From Bacteroidota bacterium (lineage in GTDB: Bacteria; Bacteroidota; Bacteroidia; Chitinophagales; Chitinophagaceae), in assembly GCA_018267545.1 (NCBI GenBank), contig JAFDYG010000474.1, positions 1 to 39,115 on the forward strand: a DNA stretch of 39,115 nt, written 5' to 3'. A program made the position numbers and the translations under genes. The notes below the pieces were generated by a model that was not told where the DNA came from, did not search any database, and was given only the letters and a program-made list of their open reading frames with translations. Below are positions 28,275 to 39,115 of this stretch, one piece after another (within the stretch, counting starts at the first letter, position 1; every line of letters starts with the position of its first letter).

Positions 28275-29507
28275 ATGGCCAAAAAAATTAAAGTTGCAAA
28301 TCCGGTGGTAGAACTGGATGGGGATGAAATGACCCGCATAATCTGGAAGTTTATCAAAGACAAGCTGATTTTACCTTATCTCGACATCGACATCAAATAC
28401 TACGACCTGGGCGTCGAATACCGTGATCAAACGGATGATCAGGTGACCATCGATGCGGCCAACGCCATCAAGCAATATGGAGTAGGCATCAAGTGCGCAA
28501 CCATCACTCCCGATGAAGCGCGCGTAAAAGAATTCAATTTAAAGAGCATGTGGAAGAGCCCCAACGGGACCATCCGCAATATCCTGGACGGAACCGTCTT
28601 CCGCGAGCCTATCGTGATGCAGAACGTACCCCGTCTGGTTACCAACTGGACGGCGCCCATCATCGTCGGCCGTCACGCCTTCGGCGACCAGTATCGGGCC
28701 ACCGATACCGTTATCAAGGGCAAGGGCAAGCTGACCATGACCTTTACGCCCGAAGACGGCGGCGCTCCCCAGACCTTCGAAGTGTTCAACTTCAAGGGTG
28801 ACGGCGTTGCGCTGAGCATGTACAATACGGACGAGTCGATCAAGGGATTTGCCCGGAGCTGTTTCAACATGGCGCTTAGCAAGAAATGGCCGCTGTATCT
28901 GTCTACGAAAAATACGATCCTCAAGAAATACGATGGCCGCTTCAAGGACATCTTCGAAGAGATCTATCAGAATGAATTCAAGCAAAAGTTCCAGGAAGCC
29001 GGTATCGTTTACGAGCACCGCCTGATCGACGACATGGTCGCCAGCGCGCTGAAATGGAACGGCAACTTCGTTTGGGCTTGTAAGAACTACGACGGCGACG
29101 TACAAAGCGATTCAGTTGCCCAGGGCTTCGGCTCTCTGGGTCTGATGACATCCGTGCTGGTCACTCCCGACGGCAAGACGATGGAAGCAGAAGCAGCTCA
29201 CGGTACGGTAACGCGTCACTATCGCGACCACCAGGCCGGTAAGCCTACTTCGACCAATCCCATCGCGTCTATCTTCGCCTGGACCCGTGGTCTGGCTTTC
29301 CGTGGAAAGCTGGATGGCAACAAGGAGCTGATCGACTTTGCCGACGCGCTCGAAGCCGTTTGTATCGAGACGGTAGAAAGCGGCAAGATGACAAAGGACC
29401 TGGCTGTTTGCGTACACGGTAATAAAGTGGAGCACGGCAAGCACTTCCTCTATACTGAGGAATTCCTGGATGCGATCGATCAGAATTTGCAGAAGAAATT
29501 GAAATAA
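28275..29507 (+). CDS. icd: NADP-dependent isocitrate dehydrogenase, homodimeric eukaryote-like type
   Basis: It oxidises isocitrate to 2-oxoglutarate and CO2 in the TCA cycle and supplies NADPH. The 410-residue protein starts [18 protein letters not shown] and carries the isocitrate-binding SPNGTIRN segment, the substrate-side region around [12 protein letters not shown] with metal-binding Asp residues, and the NADP-binding [12 protein letters not shown]. Length and motifs match the type II (IDP) group, not the E. coli type. One detail differs from the common pattern: [11 protein letters not shown], where a Gly is usual in place of Asp. It has its own promoter and ends at a bidirectional terminator shared with the molybdenum operon. 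Confidence 0.95.
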
Positions 29508-29524: not shown

Positions 29525-29555
29525 AAAAAAGCCCGGCACCCGCCGGGCTTTTTTT
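29525..29555. terminator. bidirectional terminator between icd and the nitrate/Moco operon
   Basis: GCCCGGC and GCCGGGC pair around ACCC, flanked by six A on the left and seven T on the right. It overlaps the stop codon of mobA (29554-29556), so it ends both convergent units. Confidence 0.93.
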
Positions 29556-30093
29556 ATGGAGTGTTGTAATTATTGAAAGCGGCGGGATTGATAACGGGCA
29601 ACCGGCGGGTCTTTCCCGTTCTTAGTAAAGTCTGCAGTCGTCCGTCGGGGGAAGCCCCTACCCTATCCAGGCCGCGGGCCGTATATATTCCACAAAAAGG
29701 CTGTAGCCAGCTTCCTTCTTCATAAGCATAGAAGTCAAAGTCGTTTTCCTTTTTGTAGCAGTACAGTATCGTCGTTATGGTTGGGTCATCCAGATCCAGC
29801 ATGTCGCAGGCAAGCAGGAAGATGTCGTTCCCGGCATAAAGCTGGTGTACACTAAATAAGCCATTCTGCGGGCCGGGCAGGTCGAGCGCATCGACGATCA
29901 GCTGCTCCGGCGGCAGGACGGTCCGATAGGCGGTTTCCTGTGTTCGATTGATCGAATAGACGACGGGGATTCCGAAGCGTTCCAGCTTACGTCCCATATG
30001 AAGGGCCCATGGCGTTCCTTCTTTCAAGATCAGTCCTTTATCTCTTCCCATGCGACGGCTTTCGCCTCCACACAGCACAAGGAAAAGCAGCAT
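29554..30093 (-). CDS. mobA: molybdenum cofactor guanylyltransferase MobA
   Basis: MobA transfers GMP from GTP to molybdopterin, making the guanine dinucleotide cofactor (MGD) used by NasA-type nitrate reductases. The 179-residue protein has the nucleotide-binding loop LCGGESRRMGRDKG (usually LAGGxSxRMGxDK), the central VDALDLPGPQNGLFSVH and the metal-site LLACDMLDLD. It is slightly shorter than E. coli MobA but covers the whole fold. It is the last gene of the operon, two bases after the Rdx-like gene. Its presence fits the need of the nitrate reductase for bis-MGD. Confidence 0.88.
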   Translation of the reverse strand: MLLFLVLCGGESRRMGRDKGLILKEGTPWALHMGRKLERFGIPVVYSINRTQETAYRTVLPPEQLIVDALDLPGPQNGLFSVHQLYAGNDIFLLACDMLDLDDPTITTILYCYKKENDFDFYAYEEGSWLQPFCGIYTARGLDRVGASPDGRLQTLLRTGKTRRLPVINPAAFNNYNTP

Positions 30094-30095
30094 AT

Positions 30096-30380
30096 TTATT
30101 TATTGGTATTGTCTGAATGTCCAAGGCTTTTTTGTGGATTGACCTTATCCCGGACCAGCTGCTTCAGCTCCTTGATCTCGGGAAAACGTCCTTCCCGGCG
30201 GCGGTCGAAAATCGGCTCGCCGTCGACCGAAATGATATAGGTTCCGGCAAGGGTCGCCGGCTGAAGGCTTACGGCCTGCAGGTCCTGGTTAAAGGTGGTG
30301 AGCAGCTCCTGTGCCATATAGGCGGCGCGAAGCAGCCAGCCGCACTGGGGGCAGTACTCGATGGTGATGGTCGGTTTCAT
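30096..30380 (-). CDS. SelW/Rdx family CxxC protein
   Basis: Rdx (SelT/SelW/SelH) proteins are small thioredoxin-fold redox proteins. The 94 residues include IEYCPQCGWLLRAAYMAQEL with Cys10 and Cys13, and the family's YIISVDGEPIFDRRREGRFPEIKELKQLVRD. The second position is Cys (TGC), not selenocysteine. It overlaps moaE by an ATGA junction and lies two bases from mobA, so it is co-expressed with molybdenum cofactor genes. A role in redox handling of sulfur or the cofactor is possible but unproven. Confidence 0.85.
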   Translation of the reverse strand: MKPTITIEYCPQCGWLLRAAYMAQELLTTFNQDLQAVSLQPATLAGTYIISVDGEPIFDRRREGRFPEIKELKQLVRDKVNPQKSLGHSDNTNK

Positions 30381-30832
30381 TGGTGATTACAGTTCTCGCT
30401 CCATTCCTTCGTTCCGTCGGCGTAGTATTCGCACTTCCAGATAGGAGCTTCGTGTTTTATGCGATCGATGATGTAGCGATTGGCCGCATAGGCTTCGCTT
30501 CGGTGGGCCGATGCCGTTATGACGACGACAGCCGTATCGCCTACGGTAACTTTGCCGGTACGGTGCTGGGCGATGGCGATTTTCAGGGACCATTTACTGC
30601 GGGCTTCGGCAAGTATCTCTTCGATCATCCGTATCGCCAAAGGCGCATAGGCTTCATATTCGAGGCCAAGCACGGACCTTCCTTTGTTGTTATCGCGTAC
30701 CTCACCGCTGAAGAGGACGACGGCGCCTGCGCCCGGATGGTGAGCACCAGACAGCAGACCAATCATGTCAATGGACTCGGCGGACAGAGGACTAACCTCC
30801 ACTGCTGGGCGGGATGATGACGACGATATCAT
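30377..30832 (-). CDS. moaE: molybdopterin synthase catalytic subunit MoaE
   Basis: MoaE joins with thiocarboxylated MoaD to convert cyclic pyranopterin phosphate into molybdopterin. The 151 residues show VVLFSGEVRDNNKGRSVLGLEYEAY, IAIAQHRTGKVTVGDTAVVVITASAHRSEAY and the substrate-site segment HEAPIWKCEYYADG with its catalytic Lys. The first 40 or so bases overlap the end of moaD in another frame; the start at 30832 keeps the strand VEVSPLSAESI, which is usual at the MoaE N-terminus. It overlaps the Rdx-like gene by an ATGA junction. Confidence 0.93.
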   Translation of the reverse strand: MISSSSSRPAVEVSPLSAESIDMIGLLSGAHHPGAGAVVLFSGEVRDNNKGRSVLGLEYEAYAPLAIRMIEEILAEARSKWSLKIAIAQHRTGKVTVGDTAVVVITASAHRSEAYAANRYIIDRIKHEAPIWKCEYYADGTKEWSENCNHQ

Positions 30833-31060: not shown

Positions 31061-32014
31061 TTATCCGCCAATATGTAACATACTTAAATCACTTCCGGTA
31101 AATCGTACCAATTGTTTCTGGGCGAGTGCCTGGGCCAGCTTCGTCTCCCATACGTCCGCACTCTCCTCCAGCTGCAGGGGAATCGGGTGGTTGCTGCTGA
31201 GGCAGCCATAGATGTTCCCGCTGCTATCCAGCCTTAGTCTATCGCAATCTCTGCAAAATGGCTCACTCTCGTTGGCGATGATCCCGATCACCTGTCCCTG
31301 TTCCGTTTTCCAATAGCGTGCCGTAGCAGCCATGGCGCGGTCCACCGGCTGCAGCGTATAACGGCTCGAAAGGATCTCCAGGATTTGGTCCCGGTTCAGC
31401 AGAAAACGATGCGCCTGGTCGTGCAGGTGACCCATCGCCATGATTTCCAGGAAGCGAATGGGTATCTTTCGCGAGAACGCAAATTCGGTGAGCGGCAGCA
31501 GCTGGGAATCGTTGAGTCCCTTCATGGCGACCGAATTGATTTTGACCGCCAGGCCTGCCTCCAGGGCCGCGTCGATGCCGCGAATGATGCGGTCCACGTG
31601 ATGGCGCCGGCTCATCCGGACAAAGACCTCCTCGTCGATGGCGTCCAGCGAGACATTGATCGACTGCATCCCGGCCTTCGCCAAAGGAAGCGCCATCCTT
31701 TCCAGCAGGAAGCCATTGGTCGTCAGCTTCAGCCGGGAGATGCCGCTCTCACGGATTCCCTTCACCAGCTCCACCAGCCCCGGATACAAAAGGGGTTCTC
31801 CGCCCGTGAGACGTACGGTGTCCAGGTCCAGCTGTGCGTGCAGCCGCCGGACGATGTCCAGCAGCTGAGCACCGGACAGCTGCTGTTCCTTACCCGACAC
31901 GTTAGCCTGCTTCAGCTCCGACTCTCCTGCGACGCAATATACGCAGCCCAGGTTACAGTGATGCAAAAGGCTTACCCGCAAGGTCTTGAATCTTCTCCCG
32001 TATACGTCGTTCAT
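31061..32014 (-). CDS. moaA: GTP 3',8-cyclase MoaA (radical SAM)
   Basis: MoaA carries out the first step of molybdenum cofactor synthesis, cyclising GTP with radical SAM chemistry. The 317-residue protein has the N-terminal cluster Cys20-x3-Cys24-x2-Cys27 (HHCNLGCVYC), VRLTGGEPLL, the C-terminal cluster CRDC-x13-C (FCRDCDRLRL) and the terminal HIGG, whose Gly-Gly is needed for activity in known MoaA. Its partner MoaC is not in this window. It lies 26 bases after the rubredoxin-like gene and 35 bases before moaD. Confidence 0.95.
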   Translation of the reverse strand: MNDVYGRRFKTLRVSLLHHCNLGCVYCVAGESELKQANVSGKEQQLSGAQLLDIVRRLHAQLDLDTVRLTGGEPLLYPGLVELVKGIRESGISRLKLTTNGFLLERMALPLAKAGMQSINVSLDAIDEEVFVRMSRRHHVDRIIRGIDAALEAGLAVKINSVAMKGLNDSQLLPLTEFAFSRKIPIRFLEIMAMGHLHDQAHRFLLNRDQILEILSSRYTLQPVDRAMAATARYWKTEQGQVIGIIANESEPFCRDCDRLRLDSSGNIYGCLSSNHPIPLQLEESADVWETKLAQALAQKQLVRFTGSDLSMLHIGG

Positions 32015-32040: not shown

Positions 32041-33444
32041 TCAGTGAATCGCGGGGGTTTTTTCCGCCTGGTAAAAGCCGCTCCTGGCCTCCCCGCATAG
32101 GGGGCAGCTATAGTCCGGCGGGGTATGTTCAAAAGCGGTGCCAGGCGGAACGCCGCCTTCCGGGTCTCCATATTGTTCGTCATAGAGGGTCAGGCAATGT
32201 CCGCAGCGGAATATCGGCCCCGAAGGCGGCGGCCCGGGTGTGATTACGGCCAGGGGAGGTTCCTTTTCGCCCTGCAGCCGGTAAAATTCTTTACATAAAG
32301 ACACCAGGTAAGGATAAATGTTCTCCTTCTCCAGGTCTTTGCGGAAAAGAATATATTCTTTCGAATGCGGGTTAAAGCCGGCCGTATGCCAGAGCTCATA
32401 TCGATCCAGCAATTTCAGCTGCCCCGGTCTTATGCCTTCCTGCTTCCGTATAATGATCGAACCGGAAAGGCCGGACCCGCGCTGGGTCTTGATACAAAAA
32501 GTCAGTCCTTCGGTGCGGATATCGTCCTGGTCCAATAGCCGTACCAGGTAGCGCTTGAGGCGCAGTCCTTCCGGGCAAAAGTCTTCCATCTGCCAGTTCA
32601 GCTCGTTCGAAGCATGCCGTATATTCATCCGGTGAGTCCCGAGAATCGACTCCCAAAGTGGCAGGTCCTGGTCCTCGATGCCTTTAATCAACAGCGACTT
32701 CCAGGGGGTGGTATAGATCTGTCCGATCTTGGTCTGCAAACAAGCCAGGCATACAGCTTTTAGAAAGGATAGCGGGAATAGCTCCTCGCGGCGGTAGATG
32801 CCGAGCCAGCTTTTATTGCCATAGCGATTGAAGCCTTCATAATAAGGCACGCTGTACGGCGGCAGTCCGAGCGGGGCCAGCGATGGCTCGGGGTAGAGCT
32901 TTTCGCTCCAGTGCGGGTCTTCTTCTATCCATCTGCTGACGCGCGGAATATCGGGAGAATAAACACCGGCCTTCCAGGCGAAGAGCTCATTGGTCCCCGG
33001 TTGGCGGACATACAGATGCCAGTGGTTATTGATCGCAGAGCTGATGAAATTGATATGTCCTGTAAAGAAGGGAATCAGGGACTGGCTGCTTTCTACAAGG
33101 TTTATCTTCAGCCGGGGACGAAAGTCAAAGCCGGCCAGGATATCCTTATACAAGCCTTCGCTTACCCAGGGCGACTTTCCAAAGACGGACTCCGTCACAT
33201 AGGAGCTGACGATATTGGGATAGACTTCTTTACCCGTCTCGAAGAAGATACCGGCCTGCTCCAGCTCTCTGAAGAACACGTCTCCATAGGAATCGGCCAC
33301 TTTGCAGAATAGCTGCTGACGGGCCCCGAATTGCATGTCCGTGACCTTTGCACGGCCGGCGGCCTCTACAATCGTGTAGAGATCTCCGGCGGCGATGATG
33401 CCTCCGGGCAGATTGATCTTTACGATATGACTTTTACGGAACAT
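32041..33444 (-). CDS. nitrite/sulfite-reductase-like protein without siroheme-cluster cysteines, with C-terminal rubredoxin
   Basis: The 467 residues read as two ferredoxin-like/NIR_SIR half pairs followed by a rubredoxin. The N-terminus (VKINLPGGIIAAGDLYTIV, FGARQQLFCKV) matches the NIR_SIR ferredoxin-like half-domain. PNIVSSYVTES and the FRPRLKINLVESSQ region match the first NIR_SIR unit, and LFPLSFLKAVCLACLQTKIGQIY with RMNIRHASNELNW looks like the second pair. No C-x5-C or C-x3-C cluster motif is present, so it should not bind the siroheme-[4Fe-4S] centre. Residues 412-462 are a rubredoxin with iron ligands Cys414, Cys417, Cys447 and Cys450. It starts 25 bases inside the nitrate reductase gene. 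An electron-carrier or accessory role for nitrate reductase is my inference; a catalytic nitrite reductase is unlikely. Confidence 0.7.
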   Translation of the reverse strand: MFRKSHIVKINLPGGIIAAGDLYTIVEAAGRAKVTDMQFGARQQLFCKVADSYGDVFFRELEQAGIFFETGKEVYPNIVSSYVTESVFGKSPWVSEGLYKDILAGFDFRPRLKINLVESSQSLIPFFTGHINFISSAINNHWHLYVRQPGTNELFAWKAGVYSPDIPRVSRWIEEDPHWSEKLYPEPSLAPLGLPPYSVPYYEGFNRYGNKSWLGIYRREELFPLSFLKAVCLACLQTKIGQIYTTPWKSLLIKGIEDQDLPLWESILGTHRMNIRHASNELNWQMEDFCPEGLRLKRYLVRLLDQDDIRTEGLTFCIKTQRGSGLSGSIIIRKQEGIRPGQLKLLDRYELWHTAGFNPHSKEYILFRKDLEKENIYPYLVSLCKEFYRLQGEKEPPLAVITPGPPPSGPIFRCGHCLTLYDEQYGDPEGGVPPGTAFEHTPPDYSCPLCGEARSGFYQAEKTPAIH

Positions 33445-36400
33445 TCTTCGAGTATTTTTTTGATCTCGGCCTTACAGCTTCCGCAGCCGGTCCCCGCCCC
33501 GGTAGCCGCGGAAAGCGACGCCACGTCCATACAGCCCTCCTGAATCTTCTTTTCGAGGTTGCCGCTGCCCACGTTGTTGCAGCTGCAGACCAGCCGGCCC
33601 AGCACCGGTTCTGCACGGCTTCCGCTGCGCAGCAGGCTGAGCCGTTTGTCGCTGAGCTCGATACCTTCGACGATCCATTCGCGGAATTGACCGAACTCCT
33701 CTTTATCGCCAATCAGTATCGCGCCTACAAGCCGGTCCTGGTGAATGATGCACTTCTTATAGTAGCGCCGGGCCTTGTCGATAAAGACGATCTCTTCGTA
33801 TTCTTTTGAATTGGGGCACTCGGGCAGGCCGATGCTGCAGAGGTCGAAGCCGTGGATCTTGATGATGTTCATCGGTACGGAACCGGCGTAGTGACTGGCG
33901 ATATCGCCGCTGAGATAGCGCGCAAGAGCTTCCGCCTGCTGCTCGGCCGCGGCGGTAAATCCATACAGATTCCCATTATATTCCGCAATCTCTCCGATGG
34001 CGTGAATGGACGGGTCGCTGGTCTGCAGGCAGCCGTCGACTACGATGCCGCGACGGTGCTCGAGACCAGCCTCCTTGCCGATCTCGATATTGGGAAGGGT
34101 GCCGATTGCAAAGACCAGCAGCTCGCAGTCCAGTACCCGGCCGCTTCGCAGGCGGATACCCGTCAGCCGGCCCTGGCCGTAGAAAAGCTGAACCTCGTCG
34201 GTATAATAGACCTCGCAGCCCAGGTCGACGATCTCTTCGTGCAGAAGCTGCGAGCCAAGCGCATCCAGCTGACGGTCGAGGAAACGCGAGCTGCGATGGA
34301 CGATGCTGACGCGGATATCGCCTTCGCGTAAGGAAGCCGCCAGCTCCAATCCCAGCAAGCCGCCGCCTACGACGACAACGTGTCCGCCGGGAGCAACGCG
34401 TTCCCTGAATCGGTCGGCGTCTACACGGCTCCGTAAGGTAAAGATGCCTTCCAGTTCCGGGATGTTTTTTGGCAGGGCAGCCCGGCTGCCCGTCGCCAGG
34501 ATCAGCCGGTCATAGTGCGTTACGACGCCTGTGGAATCCAGCAAACACTTCTCCTTGCGGTCGATGCTCACGATGCTGACGCCCCTGCGCAGGTCGACGG
34601 AATGGTTCGTCTCTTCCTCGTCTGTCATGCGTACCAGCTGTTCCCATTGCTGTGCGCCGCTGATATAGTCCGGTAGCTGGACACGATTGTAGAAAGGAAG
34701 ATTTTCTCTGCTAAAGACGATGATCTCGTCTTCCTGGTTCAGGGCGCGGTAGCTACGGACGAATCCATGTGCGCCTGCGCCGGCTCCGACAATCACGATT
34801 CTTTCTTTTGGCTTTTGATAGCGCTGCACCTGTACGGCACAGAATTTAAAGTCGGGTTCTTTGGAGACGGGGTCGACCAGGTTATGGGTCAGGTTGTTTA
34901 CCCGGTTCAGGTCGTTACCCAGGATCTTACCCCAGTGCATGGGCAGAAAAACGGCGCCCCTCTTGATTGCGTCGGTCGGCTTCACCGGCACCCGCACTTC
35001 CCCGCGTCTCGACCGGACCACGACAATGTCGTTGGCAGTCAGTCCGAGCGAACGTACGTCCGAAGGATGCATCTCGAGGCAGGCCTGTGGGACGTGCTGC
35101 TTCAGCTTATTCACTTTACCCGTTTTGGTCATCGTATGCCATTGGTCGCGGATGCGGCCAGTGGTGAGGACAAACGGATAATCGCCGTCGGGAAGCTCAC
35201 TGTACAATTCGTCCCCTGCGGAGTGGAAGAAGGCCCTGCCCGAGGGGGTGAAGAATTTTTTATCCATAAACAGGCGAGGCGTTCCGCCGCCTGTGCTGCC
35301 GGCCGGATAAGGCCATTGCACAGAGCGCCGCCCGCGCAGGATCGTATAATCGAGACCGGAAATATCTATCGACGTGCCGGCCGTCAAGCCTGCGTGCTCG
35401 TGGAAGATGGCGGCTGCGTCGGCATAATCGAATCCGGGAAAGCCCATCTTCTGTGCCAGCCGGCAGAGGATCGTCGCGTCGGGCAGCGCCTCACCGGGTG
35501 CTTCGACTACCTTATCCAGCAGGCTGATCCTCCGTTCGGAGTTGGTCATCGTACCCTCTTTCTCCGTCCAGGCGGCGGCGGGCAGGATCAGGTCGGCATA
35601 GGCCAGGGTCTCCGGCTTATTGCTGACTTCCTGTACGACGACAAACCGGGCCTTTTTCAGGGCTTCTTCCGCCTTGCGGATATCGGGCAGGCTCACGAGG
35701 GGATTGGTCCCCATGATCCAGATGGCCTTGAGCCTGCCTTCGGCCATGGCTTCGAACATCTGCGTAGCCGTCAGACCGGGCTGTGCCGCAAGGGGGCCCG
35801 ATCCCCAATACTCCTGCACCTGCCGGCGATGCTCGGGATTGGAGAGGTCACGGTGAGCCGGCAGGAGATTGGCCAGTCCACCGGTCTCCCGGCCACCCAT
35901 CGCATTGGGCTGCCCGGTGAGCGAGAAGGGACCGGATCCGGGCCGGCCGATCTGTCCCGTCAGCAGATGCAGGTCGATGAGGGAAAGAATCTTATTTACG
36001 CCCTTAACGCTCTGGTTGAGACCCATCGTCCAAAAACTGATATGCCCTTCGGCTTCGCCGATCCAGGCGGCGGCCTGTCGGATATCTGCTTCGGGAAGGC
36101 CGCAGATCAGGGCGGCTTCTTCGACGGTTCGGGCGAACACCCGTATACGATAGTCCTCGAATTTCTCTGTATGCGAACGGATGAACTCCGGGCTAAAGGC
36201 TCCTGTCTCGATCAGGATCCGGCCAATGGCGTAGTGCAGGGTCATGTCCGTGCCGGGATTCAGGGGCAGGTGCAAGTCGGCAAGAGCGCAGCTATCCGTC
36301 CGCCGCGGGTCGGCGACGATGATGCGGACATGGGGATTGGCGGCCTTGTGCGCTTCTATGCGCCGCCAGAGAATGGGATGACACCAGGCGGGATTGGCTC

Positions 36401-36941
36401 CCGTCACGAAAAAGCAATCCGCCAGCTCGATATCCTCGTAGCTTAGCGGAACGCTGTCTTCGCCGAACGCCATTTTATGGGCGGCTACGGCGCTGCTCAT
36501 ACAAAGGCGGGAATTGCTGTCGATATTGTTGCTGCCGATGAAACCCTTCATCAGCTTGTTCACGACGTAGTACTCTTCCGTCAGGCATTGTCCGGACACA
36601 TAAAAGCCGACGGCATCCGGGCCATACTTGGCGATCAGGGTCTTGAAGACGGCGGCCGCCCGGTCCAGGGCCGTATCCCAATCGACGCGCTGCAGGGGCA
36701 TATGCCGCGCCGGCCGCATCTGCGGGTATAGCAGGCGATCGCTGCGGTCGTTGACGGTATGATGCAGATTAAGGCCCTTGCTGCAGAGCATGCCTTTGTT
36801 CACCGGATAGTCTGCGCTGCCTTCGACGGAGATCCGGCCTTTCTTATCCTTGTGTACGGTGACTCCACAGCCTACGCCGCAATAGCAACAAGTGGAGGAA
36901 AAACGTTCGGTGTGACGAGGGTTCGCAGACATATTCATCAT
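33420..36941 (-). CDS. nasA: assimilatory nitrate reductase NasA fused to NirB-like FAD/NAD and BFD [2Fe-2S] domains
   Basis: It reduces nitrate to nitrite in the cytoplasm. The 1173 residues contain: a [4Fe-4S] site Cys18-x2-Cys21-x3-Cys25...Cys53; the molybdopterin core with the Mo-ligand Cys of SRLCMSSAVAAHKMAFGE; a dinucleotide-binding C-terminal part of the NasA unit (LTTGRIRDQWHTMTKTGKV, MHWGKILGNDLN); a pyridine-nucleotide-disulfide-type FAD domain from about 712 (IVIVGAGAGAHGF) with an NAD motif near 852 (VVVVGGGLLGLE); and a BFD [2Fe-2S] domain from about 1114 (CSCNN...TGCGSC). It thus carries its own NAD(P)H-to-Mo electron path. Three ATG codons lie at the start (36941, 36938, 36932). 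It lies four bases after narK and overlaps the next gene by 25. Confidence 0.92.
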   Translation of the reverse strand: MMNMSANPRHTERFSSTCCYCGVGCGVTVHKDKKGRISVEGSADYPVNKGMLCSKGLNLHHTVNDRSDRLLYPQMRPARHMPLQRVDWDTALDRAAAVFKTLIAKYGPDAVGFYVSGQCLTEEYYVVNKLMKGFIGSNNIDSNSRLCMSSAVAAHKMAFGEDSVPLSYEDIELADCFFVTGANPAWCHPILWRRIEAHKAANPHVRIIVADPRRTDSCALADLHLPLNPGTDMTLHYAIGRILIETGAFSPEFIRSHTEKFEDYRIRVFARTVEEAALICGLPEADIRQAAAWIGEAEGHISFWTMGLNQSVKGVNKILSLIDLHLLTGQIGRPGSGPFSLTGQPNAMGGRETGGLANLLPAHRDLSNPEHRRQVQEYWGSGPLAAQPGLTATQMFEAMAEGRLKAIWIMGTNPLVSLPDIRKAEEALKKARFVVVQEVSNKPETLAYADLILPAAAWTEKEGTMTNSERRISLLDKVVEAPGEALPDATILCRLAQKMGFPGFDYADAAAIFHEHAGLTAGTSIDISGLDYTILRGRRSVQWPYPAGSTGGGTPRLFMDKKFFTPSGRAFFHSAGDELYSELPDGDYPFVLTTGRIRDQWHTMTKTGKVNKLKQHVPQACLEMHPSDVRSLGLTANDIVVVRSRRGEVRVPVKPTDAIKRGAVFLPMHWGKILGNDLNRVNNLTHNLVDPVSKEPDFKFCAVQVQRYQKPKERIVIVGAGAGAHGFVRSYRALNQEDEIIVFSRENLPFYNRVQLPDYISGAQQWEQLVRMTDEEETNHSVDLRRGVSIVSIDRKEKCLLDSTGVVTHYDRLILATGSRAALPKNIPELEGIFTLRSRVDADRFRERVAPGGHVVVVGGGLLGLELAASLREGDIRVSIVHRSSRFLDRQLDALGSQLLHEEIVDLGCEVYYTDEVQLFYGQGRLTGIRLRSGRVLDCELLVFAIGTLPNIEIGKEAGLEHRRGIVVDGCLQTSDPSIHAIGEIAEYNGNLYGFTAAAEQQAEALARYLSGDIASHYAGSVPMNIIKIHGFDLCSIGLPECPNSKEYEEIVFIDKARRYYKKCIIHQDRLVGAILIGDKEEFGQFREWIVEGIELSDKRLSLLRSGSRAEPVLGRLVCSCNNVGSGNLEKKIQEGCMDVASLSAATGAGTGCGSCKAEIKKILEECSVKVIS

Positions 36942-36945
36942 TTAG

Positions 36946-38274
36946 TTAAGCCGTCGCCGGCGCCGTCCTTCCGGGGAGGGACCTGTCTTCCTCCTTTTTA
37001 AACCGGATGACGGATATGAGAGCGGCGATTACCAATACGGTCAGGCCTATATAGGTAAAAGCTTCGGCATATGTAATATCTTCCGACTTGAACAGGAAGC
37101 CGAACATCATTCCCCCCAGGTTGCCTCCGGCGCCTACGACACCGCTTATGAGGCCTACGTTCCTTTCGTTGATGAAGGGTGTAATGCCGTAAACTGCGCC
37201 GTTGGCCATTTTCAGAAACAGGGCAAAAGTCAGCATACAGGCGATGGCAATGGGAAATGTCTGAGCGTGGGCGAAGGCGATCAGGCCCAGGCCTTCCAGC
37301 AGTAAGGCAGCGGCCAGCAGGTTGCCCTTGCCGCGCATGCCCCAGCGTATACCTGCCTTGTCGGATAGAATGCCTCCAAGGGCGCGGGCGAAGATGTTCA
37401 TAAAGCCGAAGAGGCCGGCCCAAAGCCCTGCGCTGGATTGCGAGAGGTGGAAATTGTCTACAAAATGCAGCGCTGCCACGTTATCGAAGGTAATCTCCAT
37501 CCCGAAGCACATAGCGTAGGCAAGAGTCAGCGCGACCACGCGCCAGTCGGCCAATACCGACCAGTCGGTGGAACCGCCGGCGGCAGGTCTTTCTATCTCG
37601 GAGTAGTTACCCGCCGGCGTATCCCTGGTATATCGATGATACAAATAGGCAACGGCCCACATCATAGCGGCAGGAACGATCATCGCATAACGCCATGCCA
37701 TATGCGGAGCATATCCGAAGCCAAGGATCGCCGAAAAGATCAGGGGCATGACCATGTTGGTGACACCGCCGCCGAGGTTGCCCCAGCCTCCGGTGATTGC
37801 ATTGGCAGTGCCCTTTATCTTCGAAGCGAACATCATCGAGGTATGAAACTGGGTAATGACGAAGGAGGCGCCGATCACGCCGATCGCCAGGCGGAATAAT
37901 AGAAAGCTCGTATAATTAGTAGCCAGCCCCACCAGCAGGACGGGGATGGAGCCAATCAGCAGGAGACGAACGGCGGTCTTTCTCGGACCGAACCGGTCGC
38001 AAAGCTTGCCGATGATCAATCGGGCAAGGATAGTCGAAGAAACGGAAGCAATGATGGTATTGCCTACCTGCGCTTTGGTCAGGCCCAGGTCCGCCCGGAT
38101 CGCCGGCATCAGGGGCGCAAGGCCGAACCAGCCGAAGAAACATACGAAGAACATCAGCCAGGTAATGTGGAAGGTCCGCATCTGGATCGTATCGAGGGAG
38201 AAGAGCCGGATGCGGTCGAGGGGCCTGTTGTCGCCGGTGGCCGTTGTTGGAGGAGTGTTGGTAGTGTTGTTCAT
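36946..38274 (-). CDS. narK: NarK/NasA-type MFS nitrate/nitrite transporter
   Basis: It moves nitrate (and perhaps nitrite) across the inner membrane. The 442-residue protein has twelve TM helices, a Thr/Pro-rich cytoplasmic N-terminus, and the nitrate signature in both halves: AITGGWGNLGGGVTNM in TM5 and GVVGAGGNLGGMMFGF in TM11, as well as the RxxxG and Arg-containing substrate helices (FRLAIGVIGASF, ITFDNVAALHF). The gene lies 11 bases after the barrel gene and four bases before the nitrate reductase gene. Confidence 0.93.
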   Translation of the reverse strand: MNNTTNTPPTTATGDNRPLDRIRLFSLDTIQMRTFHITWLMFFVCFFGWFGLAPLMPAIRADLGLTKAQVGNTIIASVSSTILARLIIGKLCDRFGPRKTAVRLLLIGSIPVLLVGLATNYTSFLLFRLAIGVIGASFVITQFHTSMMFASKIKGTANAITGGWGNLGGGVTNMVMPLIFSAILGFGYAPHMAWRYAMIVPAAMMWAVAYLYHRYTRDTPAGNYSEIERPAAGGSTDWSVLADWRVVALTLAYAMCFGMEITFDNVAALHFVDNFHLSQSSAGLWAGLFGFMNIFARALGGILSDKAGIRWGMRGKGNLLAAALLLEGLGLIAFAHAQTFPIAIACMLTFALFLKMANGAVYGITPFINERNVGLISGVVGAGGNLGGMMFGFLFKSEDITYAEAFTYIGLTVLVIAALISVIRFKKEEDRSLPGRTAPATA

Positions 38275-38285
38275 GGCAGTTAGGT

Positions 38286-39115
38286 TTATTTAGTCAGGAA
38301 ATCAGGTCTTATGTTCAGCTGCAGATAGGCCCAGGTGGCGGTGGTACGGGCTGTACCGGGAGTAATGCCCTTGGCGTATTCCATGCTGCGGGAAGCGGCG
38401 AGGCCGCAGAAGCCGGTCTCGACGGTCGTAACCTTGTTGAGCTGGTAATTGGCGATCAGGTCGATCTCGCTTCCCAGGCAGCTGGACACGGCGGAGCCCT
38501 TCGCGTCTTTTTGGGAGCGGGCGAGACCGAAATAATGATAGGCGAGCTCAAGCGTAAACCGGTTGTTGCGGGAAGCATATCGTCCTTTAAGGAACGGGTT
38601 ATTCAGCCCTCCCGTGGGAGAGCCTGTACCCGCATAGAAATAGTCCATATAACCCCAGAACTTGTGCGGGGTGCCGTACAGGGGGTCGAAGCGATGGCTG
38701 GTCGTAGAGGAAGAAAATGCGTCGTTGCCCGAAAGGTAATCCCAGCCGATCGTAACGGTGTATAGCTGGCGGTTGTAAGACAGGGACAGCGTGGACGTGT
38801 AAGCAGAAAGATCTAAGCCGTCACGGTCCTTGCCGCCCTGGTAGTAGAAGCCGGCCTGCAGACGCCAGTAATTGCGCCTGTCGAGGGGCGTATTCAATAA
38901 TAAGCCGGCGGTTACGCGGGCATTGACGCCTGGCTGGTTGAAGCGCCGGCCATACAGGTAACCGGTATCGGAGCCGGCGATGGTGCGGATCGAATCGGGT
39001 TTATAGCGGCCGAACTCATCGGCGAACACGAGTCCCGTCAGCTTGGCGCGCCGGATGCTGCGGGCTACGTATAGGTATTGCATCGATTTGTAGTCCTGAT
39101 TAGCTCCATTGGTGC
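38286..39115 (-). CDS. alginate-export-type outer-membrane beta-barrel, N-terminus outside the window
   Basis: The frame is open to the right edge of the window, giving about 275 C-terminal residues. Repeated amphipathic strands (YWRLQAGFYYQGG, STLSLSYNRQLYTVTIGWDYLSG, RFTLELAYHYFG, TTATWAYLQLNIRPDF) and the SHRFDPLYGTPHKFWGYMDYFY segment match the alginate_exp barrel family. In Bacteroidota these proteins often occur beside nitrate genes; a role as an outer-membrane pore for nitrate or nitrite is suggested by position only. It is the first visible gene of the nitrate block, 11 bases before narK. The operon promoter is outside the window. Confidence 0.75.
   Translation of the reverse strand, partial: TNGANQDYKSMQYLYVARSIRRAKLTGLVFADEFGRYKPDSIRTIAGSDTGYLYGRRFNQPGVNARVTAGLLLNTPLDRRNYWRLQAGFYYQGGKDRDGLDLSAYTSTLSLSYNRQLYTVTIGWDYLSGNDAFSSSTTSHRFDPLYGTPHKFWGYMDYFYAGTGSPTGGLNNPFLKGRYASRNNRFTLELAYHYFGLARSQKDAKGSAVSSCLGSEIDLIANYQLNKVTTVETGFCGLAASRSMEYAKGITPGTARTTATWAYLQLNIRPDFLTK

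Follow-up and report, generated by a model that had tools for sequence, protein, structure and literature searches.

A nitrate-assimilation locus from a Chitinophagaceae member of the Bacteroidota (assembly GCA_018267545.1, contig JAFDYG010000474.1) raises the question of what a 467-aa protein ending in a rubredoxin does beside a nitrate reductase that carries an FAD module of its own. The original prediction held that NirB had been split here, its front half being fused to NasA and its back half becoming a siroheme-less rubredoxin carrier. Features of the locus are given below as positions in the window, by which we mean the whole 39,115-nt stretch of DNA that was analysed.

38286..39113, minus strand: alginate-export-type porin, C-terminal part (family name via a Spirosoma relative)
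36946..38274, minus strand: NarK-type nitrate/nitrite MFS transporter (TIGR00886, 302.4 bits against a cut-off of 311.7)
33420..36941, minus strand: fused nitrate reductase, 1173 aa, catalytic part of NasA joined to an FAD/NAD(P)H and [2Fe-2S] module
36750..36899, minus strand: its Molybdop_Fe4S4 [4Fe-4S] domain, residues 15-64 (Pfam 9.3e-14)
35451..36737, minus strand: its molybdopterin oxidoreductase domain, residues 69-497 (Pfam 2.2e-67)
34836..35174, minus strand: its Molydop_binding domain, residues 590-702 (Pfam 5.8e-33)
33933..34802, minus strand: its Pyr_redox_2 FAD/NAD domain, residues 714-1003 (Pfam 5e-46)
33663..33875, minus strand: its Rubredoxin_C domain (rubredoxin-NAD+ reductase C-terminal type), residues 1023-1093 (Pfam 9.6e-20)
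33444..33593, minus strand: its single Fer2_BFD [2Fe-2S] domain, residues 1117-1166 (Pfam 4.8e-12)
32041..33444, minus strand: NIR/SIR-fold rubredoxin protein, 467 aa (ORF, Pfam, AlphaFold2 model, Foldseek)
32254..33444, minus strand: its predicted siroheme-less NirA/CysI-type core, residues ~1-397 (hhalign, Foldseek)
33310..33429, minus strand: its first NIR_SIR_ferr half-domain, residues 6-45, R42-Q43 invariant (Pfam, conservation)
32674..32772, minus strand: its putative second NIR_SIR_ferr half-domain, residues ~225-257 (two Pfam stretches, relative, model)
32740..32751, minus strand: its conserved C232-x-x-C235, off the siroheme-cluster positions (alignment, conservation)
32074..32211, minus strand: its rubredoxin domain, residues 412-457, Cys 414, 417, 447 and 450 (Pfam 7e-14, conservation)
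31061..32014, minus strand: MoaA, molybdenum cofactor synthesis (Pfam Radical_SAM and Mob_synth_C)
30377..30832, minus strand: MoaE (Pfam)
29554..30093, minus strand: MobA-like (Pfam NTP_transf_3)

The 1173-aa protein carries NasA-type molybdopterin domains with an N-terminal [4Fe-4S] (PF04879, PF00384, PF01568) followed by FAD/NAD and BFD [2Fe-2S] domains at its C-terminus, as predicted, and all six domain types scored above the Pfam gathering cut-offs. From these domains and the NarK/NirBD/Mo-cofactor context we identify it as a NasA-type nitrate reductase fused to an NADH-oxidising module, an assignment to be read alongside its scores below the cut-offs of the NCBIfam NasC and haloarchaeal NasA equivalog models and, likewise, of its best NCBIfam model, Fdh-alpha. 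The Rubredoxin_C match in the FAD part (70.8 bits) is no proof of rubredoxin docking, because NirB falls under the same domain name (37.6 bits); against the NorW model the FAD module scored 163 bits, below the cut-off of 392. The 1173-aa and 467-aa ORFs were recovered at the positions first reported and share 25 bases (33420-33444), in agreement with the overlap given there. The NarK-type transporter gene belongs to the same cassette as fused NasA. The N-terminal part of the porin sits on contig C100, which overlaps the window end, and the piece in the window had no Pfam or NCBIfam match. Intact NirB and NirD are also encoded on a contig overlapping the window end, and the cassette includes CobA, both in this genome and on the two annotated plasmids.

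We then examined the fold of the 467-aa protein. Pfam NIR_SIR_ferr matched it in two stretches just above the cut-off (9.9e-6, 25.6 bits against 24) and recurred in each of the seven relatives that were scanned, passing the cut-off in five; the second half was placed from stretch 243-279 of the homologue L017. The proposed profile check thus succeeded for NIR_SIR_ferr and failed for the NIR_SIR catalytic domain (PF01077), for which there was no Pfam detection. Comparison of the AlphaFold2 model (pLDDT 87.9) with known structures did give the expected fold match: the top Foldseek hit was M. tuberculosis NirA (1zj8, E 6e-18), ranks 1-31 were all sulfite or nitrite reductases, and the matches to NirA and to E. 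coli SiRHP (1aop), the best ones along the whole model, spanned about 450-470 columns. Global superposition on 1zj8 was poor (TM 0.48 by query length, rmsd 16.5).

Profile alignment with hhalign was assessed against 30 shuffled profiles, whose maximum score was 24.7. With a combined CysI/NirA profile, the homologue profile aligned along residues 7-397 (369 columns, at a low probability of 20%), an alignment of the whole core that hinged on combining the two families. A six-CysI profile alone covered core residues 7-273 (260 columns); with a five-NirA profile alone, the best alignment had 75 columns and paired the first half of the core with the second half of NirA, the whole-length alignment coming second, its score of 24.6 not exceeding that of the best shuffle. 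Single sequences performed less well (CysI, 39 columns; NirB, 136 columns, weak; NirA, 63 columns, weak), and global mode gave poor alignments of 190 and 31 columns. CysI and NirA profiles matched the core about equally (35.6 and 36.5), so descent from the NirA of a fused-NasA system is not singled out. In PDB-chain sequence searches, the C-terminus retrieved rubredoxins and the core nothing among the best 60 of 65 and 70 matches; RecA rows in one of these searches, which had no passing stretch, were treated as artefacts. Given the low hhalign probabilities and the profile dependence, the fold call rests on Foldseek and the two Pfam halves, which assign the protein to the NIR/SIR fold and give it, like NirA/CysI, two ferredoxin-like halves.

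Conservation was read from a 109-row set in which one protein occurred twice (L123 = L181), leaving 108 rows after removal, with L118 and L120 omitted as repeats. Alignment A2 comprised the window protein and 62 of the 80 loci described below, after near-copies and truncated rows had been removed by hand. At the positions aligned with the cluster cysteines, the 108 rows (window protein included) had Cys at 284 in none, at 290 in 61 and at 321 in none, and the fourth position was a gap; any Cys within residues 318-332 occurred in a single row. All 11 CysI and NirA-like comparison proteins retained the C-x5-C and C-x3-C motifs. Judged from these alignments, the siroheme-cluster cysteines are lost from the 467-aa protein, as had been proposed, and with the [4Fe-4S]-siroheme site gone it would be no nitrite reductase. 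The RQ motif of the NirA/CysI first half is retained. Among the four aligned basic motif positions, which we take to be the catalytic quartet of NirA/CysI, R42 (107 of 107 rows having a residue there) and K113 (104/108) are kept, position 76 is lost, the NRN-motif arginine being replaced (P76 in 87/108), and 111 is variable. C232 and C235 were each present in 106 of 109 rows, C290, C315 and C384 being much rarer, and together these five may form a second Fe-S or Zn site.

The 467-aa protein ends in a rubredoxin domain (PF00301) that has the two C-x2-C pairs. Its four cysteines, part of the original prediction, were conserved in 106 of 109 rows; the rows lacking the full set were the contig-truncated L071 and two identical rows of a single protein that has no rubredoxin and whose genome had no detected fused NasA or full NirB. 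Residues 401-410 of the AlphaFold2 model, between the confident core and the confident rubredoxin, had a mean pLDDT of 62, which suggests that the linker is probably flexible. The rubredoxin matched the NorV model weakly (4.3e-4, far below the cut-off).

Next, we surveyed the two genes across Bacteroidota, using a locus set that comprised 80 of 107 relatives from a pattern-limited scan and, for each gene surveyed, 395 Bacteroidota genomes taken as one draw. The fused NasA gene lay directly upstream of the rubredoxin-protein gene in 76 of 80 loci (73 full, 3 contig-cut), and both genes were within 1 kb in all 28 sampled genomes having both, so the two are found mostly together. In three Pinibacter loci the rubredoxin-protein gene lay away from fused NasA. 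The genomes with full NirB, 28 of 395, were exactly those with rubredoxin-bearing members, and they span eight families; 94 of the 123 genomes matching the 467-aa protein, with a best E no better than 3e-14, were excluded, and among the matches listed theirs were in the rubredoxin part. The presence/absence pattern amounts to one event on the tree, so the association with NirB may simply reflect inheritance of the cassette. Five of the 33 sampled genomes carrying the fusion had no rubredoxin protein, indicating that fused NasA is not strictly dependent on it; all five have, next to NasA, a NirA-like protein whose cluster motifs are intact. Outside Bacteroidota, the core was sought in a plasmid collection and by the pattern-limited scan; in the collection, 24 records matched, and the four that covered 80% or more of the query were all from Bacteroidota.

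These data bear on the proposed split of NirB, in which the FAD/[2Fe-2S] front half would have joined NasA and the 467-aa protein would derive from the NIR/SIR back half. The FAD-BFD module does resemble the NirB front half (31-34% identity), its match to the NirB model TIGR02374 ending at profile position 469 of 794, and the NirB back half aligned to the core above the shuffles (score 31.0), although over 137 columns at a low probability of 13%, as against the 369 columns obtained with the combined CysI/NirA profile. However, an intact 832-aa NirB (TIGR02374, 1018 bits) is encoded on the contig continuing the window; this NirB carries PF01077, two Fer2_BFD stretches and one NIR_SIR_ferr stretch, where the 467-aa protein has two of the last. 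In a midpoint-rooted tree with 43 fusion rows (L180 being a fusion row and no NirB) and distant, long-branched outgroups, the fused FAD modules formed one clade (100/100) apart from Bacteroidota and Pseudomonadota NirB, and the fusion also occurs without the 467-aa gene in the five genomes above. The intact NirB, the tree and the two halves largely refute a split, which we consider highly improbable.

We propose instead that the 467-aa protein is probably an electron-carrying helper. In principle, the electron path to Mo is already complete inside the fused polypeptide, whose own FAD and [2Fe-2S] could connect NAD(P)H with [4Fe-4S]/Mo. The NirA/CysI-type core, its cluster lost, would act as a docking body in what we infer to be a physical complex, and the rubredoxin on its flexible-looking linker would trade electrons with the fusion's FAD module, which resembles rubredoxin reductase, thereby increasing the supply to NasA or else handing them to an end acceptor within the NasA-NirB system. 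We give an even chance to the joint reading that the cassette of porin, NarK, fused NasA, rubredoxin protein, Mo-cofactor genes, NirB, NirD and CobA is a complete NAD(P)H-driven nitrate-to-ammonium system, and that the 467-aa protein is its non-catalytic NirA-fold accessory subunit, relaying electrons through the tethered rubredoxin. More tentatively, and with much lower confidence, an ancestral NirA of the fused-NasA system could have lost its siroheme cluster on NirBD uptake, turning into a link between NasA and NirB, either a redox arm tipped with rubredoxin or a subunit for nitrite hand-over; this reading fits because, in each of the five genomes that have fused NasA and lack the rubredoxin protein, a NirA-like protein with its cluster motifs intact adjoins NasA.

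Other roles would account for parts of these data. A retired nitrite reductase might serve as a scaffold bridging fused NasA and NirBD and handing over nitrite, the rubredoxin being structural or auxiliary. Its exact co-occurrence with full NirB and the retained R42 and K113 are consistent with this, but that co-occurrence is the one event on the tree, the NRN-motif arginine is replaced, NirB lies on a different contig from the pair in G214 and G250 (draft assemblies, so distance is not implied), and a pure scaffold would have no need of four conserved rubredoxin cysteines; we regard it as unlikely. Position would suit a maturation or assembly factor that inserts cofactor into fused NasA and stays outside the working enzyme, since the gene lies between NasA and the Mo-cofactor genes in the window and MoaA is downstream in 33 of 76 paired loci. 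The five genomes with the fusion and no 467-aa protein, the lack of any Pfam or NCBIfam match to known molybdoenzyme chaperone families, and a redox-type rubredoxin, unexpected in a chaperone, make this distinctly improbable.

Very unlikely, in our judgement, is a sink for NO, O2 or other side electrons, in which the fused FAD module would reduce the rubredoxin and this would feed a detoxifying reaction. The precedent is Bradyrhizobium Flp, which has been proposed to act for NasC as well as for a globin (PMC4724949), and the weak NorV match points the same way, but the idea is purely one of analogy. An active siroheme nitrite or sulfite reductase with unusual ligands, which the kept fold and CobA in the cassette and on both plasmids could suggest, was rejected on the missing cysteines, CobA being accounted for by NirB, and has next to no likelihood.

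Compared with NirA/CysI, the 467-aa protein shares the two ferredoxin-like halves and the RQ motif of the first half, and differs in its lost cluster cysteines, undetected PF01077, added rubredoxin and shorter core (~400 residues versus ~550). The catalytic part of fused NasA is 46-48% identical to that of plasmid NasA from Cupriavidus and Caballeronia, where the FAD partner is of the same superfamily; those two loci, however, encode the FAD protein and NasA in separate ORFs, and within about 13 kb they showed no relative of the 467-aa protein. As in NorV/NorW, a four-Cys C-terminal rubredoxin occurs with a NorW-related FAD module, but here the rubredoxin sits on a nitrite-reductase fold rather than on the flavodiiron core of NorV. 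A full-text search, which took in mostly literature outside subscription, yielded apparently no paper describing the 467-aa protein, and it appears unstudied. Where annotation was seen, its only RefSeq label was 'rubredoxin', an annotation that hides a cluster-less nitrite-reductase fold with a rubredoxin among the nitrate-assimilation genes of Bacteroidota. The protein offers a clean, testable example of what looks like an enzyme fold converted to electron transfer, relevant to the electron supply of assimilatory nitrate reductases in a phylum where this topic seems little studied.

Two minus-strand open reading frames were recovered at the coordinates of the original prediction, together with their 25-base overlap:

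33420-36941, minus strand, fused NasA, 1173 aa
32041-33444, minus strand, 467-aa rubredoxin protein

Pfam searches of the fused NasA recovered a complete NasA-type catalytic part and, behind it, Pyr_redox_2, Rubredoxin_C and a single Fer2_BFD domain, and the match of the NirB model to this protein was confined to the first 469 of 794 model positions. In the 467-aa protein, Pfam detected a rubredoxin at the C-terminus (7e-14) and NIR_SIR_ferr in two stretches, as in CysI and NirA-like proteins (NirB has one); no Pfam or NCBIfam model matched it over its whole length. The source genome is a draft in 553 contigs, placed by its nearest named relatives close to Puia/Flavitalea-type Chitinophagaceae.

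An AlphaFold2 model of the 467-aa protein, built with a 63-sequence alignment, reached a mean pLDDT of 87.9 and a pTM of 0.77, with pLDDT dropping to 62 between core and rubredoxin. M. tuberculosis NirA led its Foldseek matches over 460 columns (E 6e-18), and the first 31 ranks were without exception NirA, CysI or plant-type nitrite or sulfite reductases. The global superposition on NirA was poor (TM 0.48, rmsd 16.5), so the match reflects a shared chain of elements rather than a shared overall shape. The cores of 80 relatives and of the window protein, 81 in all, were joined in a profile. It aligned over 369 columns (core residues 7-397, score 36.1) with a profile built from six CysI and five NirA-like proteins together, and over 137 columns (score 31.0) with 33 NirB back halves, the maximum among 30 column-shuffled profiles being 24.7. 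Against CysI alone residues 7-273 were aligned, and against NirA alone the best alignment spanned just 75 columns and paired unlike halves; the whole-length sequence evidence is therefore weaker than the fold evidence. These results indicated that the 467-aa protein is a NirA/CysI-type protein.

The catalytic cluster site has been lost. In the profile alignment, the four CysI/NirA cluster cysteines fell on core residues 284, 290 and 321 and a gap; cysteine occurred at these residues in 0, 61 and 0 of 108 sequences, respectively, and anywhere within residues 318-332 in one of 108. Among the motifs that we take to bind substrate and siroheme in NirA/CysI, the RQ of the first ferredoxin-like half was invariant wherever the residues were present (109-row alignment), K113 was retained in 104/108 sequences, and the NRN-motif arginine position was proline in 87/108. 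All four rubredoxin cysteines were complete in all but three of the 109 rows (one contig-truncated row and one rubredoxin-less protein counted twice), and C232 and C235 were each found in 106 rows. Two relatives (L037:9001-10446 and L144) have a shortened rubredoxin whose middle part is gone, with all four cysteines kept.

The proposal that a NirB had been split into a NasA-fused front and a 467-aa back was not borne out: contig C100 of the same genome encodes an intact 832-aa NirB (TIGR02374, 1018 bits), together with NirD (TIGR02378, 106 bits) and CobA. Window positions 39086-39115 are identical to the first 30 bases of C100 (L027:1-30), and a porin gene is cut at the joint; its two pieces, one on either contig, match the corresponding halves of a relative's 519-aa porin. 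C100 thus most likely continues the window, with NirB in the same cassette as the pair, as in many relatives. A Crp/Fnr-type gene (L027:982-1665), a candidate nitrate or nitrogen regulator, separates MoeA from the porin and is encoded on the strand opposite to the cassette. An isocitrate dehydrogenase gene adjoins the cassette (28275-29507), and on a plasmid of Hymenobacter volaticus an NADP-dependent one follows the pair at a distance of about 4.7 kb (L193:19673-20905); such an enzyme perhaps supplies 2-oxoglutarate and NADPH.

Among 80 named-collection loci, 76 carried the fused NasA directly upstream of the rubredoxin gene (73 full, 3 contig-cut) at a median gap of 4 bases. NarK preceded the fusion in 72 of these 76, and a further NirB ORF was present in 43. 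At the unpaired locus L107 the gene starts 193 bases into its contig; in three Pinibacter loci (L067, L070, L072) it stands alone, with all four cysteines retained and the fused NasA elsewhere in the genome. On two annotated plasmids the pair carries the names 'nitrate reductase' and 'rubredoxin'; its neighbours there are nirD, cobA and an MFS transporter, assigned to the NarK family on one of them. The gene table, which is incomplete, lists nirB for one plasmid, and an N-terminal NirB piece was found on the other. The 'additional copy' of nirB reported to adjoin NarK in Dyadobacter may, going by accession order alone, be the fused NasA (PMC12584681).

Among 395 sampled Bacteroidota genomes, separate searches found the core in 29, fused NasA in 33 and full NirB above cut-off in 28; these 28, spanning 15 genera and eight families, were exactly those with both fused NasA and the rubredoxin-bearing protein. 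The remaining core homologue (G186; L181:63-1553) lacks any rubredoxin and lies at a contig edge, and searches of that genome found neither fused NasA nor full NirB. In each of the other five fused-NasA genomes the fusion is accompanied by a gene for a NirA-like protein whose C-x5-C and C-x3-C motifs are intact, with flavodoxin-type and FAD/NAD-type genes separating the two; some of these proteins were checked with Pfam. The two flavoprotein genes of this alternative cassette (L176-L180) look like a CysJ-type flavoprotein split in two, and the N-termini of the two pieces resemble each other over about 25 residues. In a tree of FAD modules, all 43 fusion rows formed one clade (100/100) of two branches, the five NirA-cassette genomes and the rubredoxin-linked fusions, with Bacteroidota and Pseudomonadota NirB outside; the pattern thus amounts to a single gain or loss rather than 28 separate events.

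By its domain content, the fused NasA would by itself carry the full path from NAD(P)H through FAD and [2Fe-2S] to [4Fe-4S]/Mo, which makes the rubredoxin protein an addition. We favor an accessory redox subunit, in which the dead NirA fold would dock and the tethered rubredoxin would act as the redox part. Comparative genomics argues that the fused NasA can do without this protein where NirA replaces NirB, so we give the reading an even chance. That the protein instead hands nitrite over to NirB seems unlikely to us, and a role as assembly factor less likely still. Less probable again would be an electron sink, for which there is a precedent in Bradyrhizobium, where a separate flavoprotein, Flp, is proposed to serve both NasC and a globin (PMC4724949).

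The only RefSeq name seen for the family was 'rubredoxin', and a literature search covering mainly open full texts listed no description of the 467-aa protein. The NIR/SIR fold and rubredoxin are each already known; what appears to be new is a NirA/CysI-type fold without its catalytic cluster, joined to a rubredoxin, in an assimilatory nitrate cassette.
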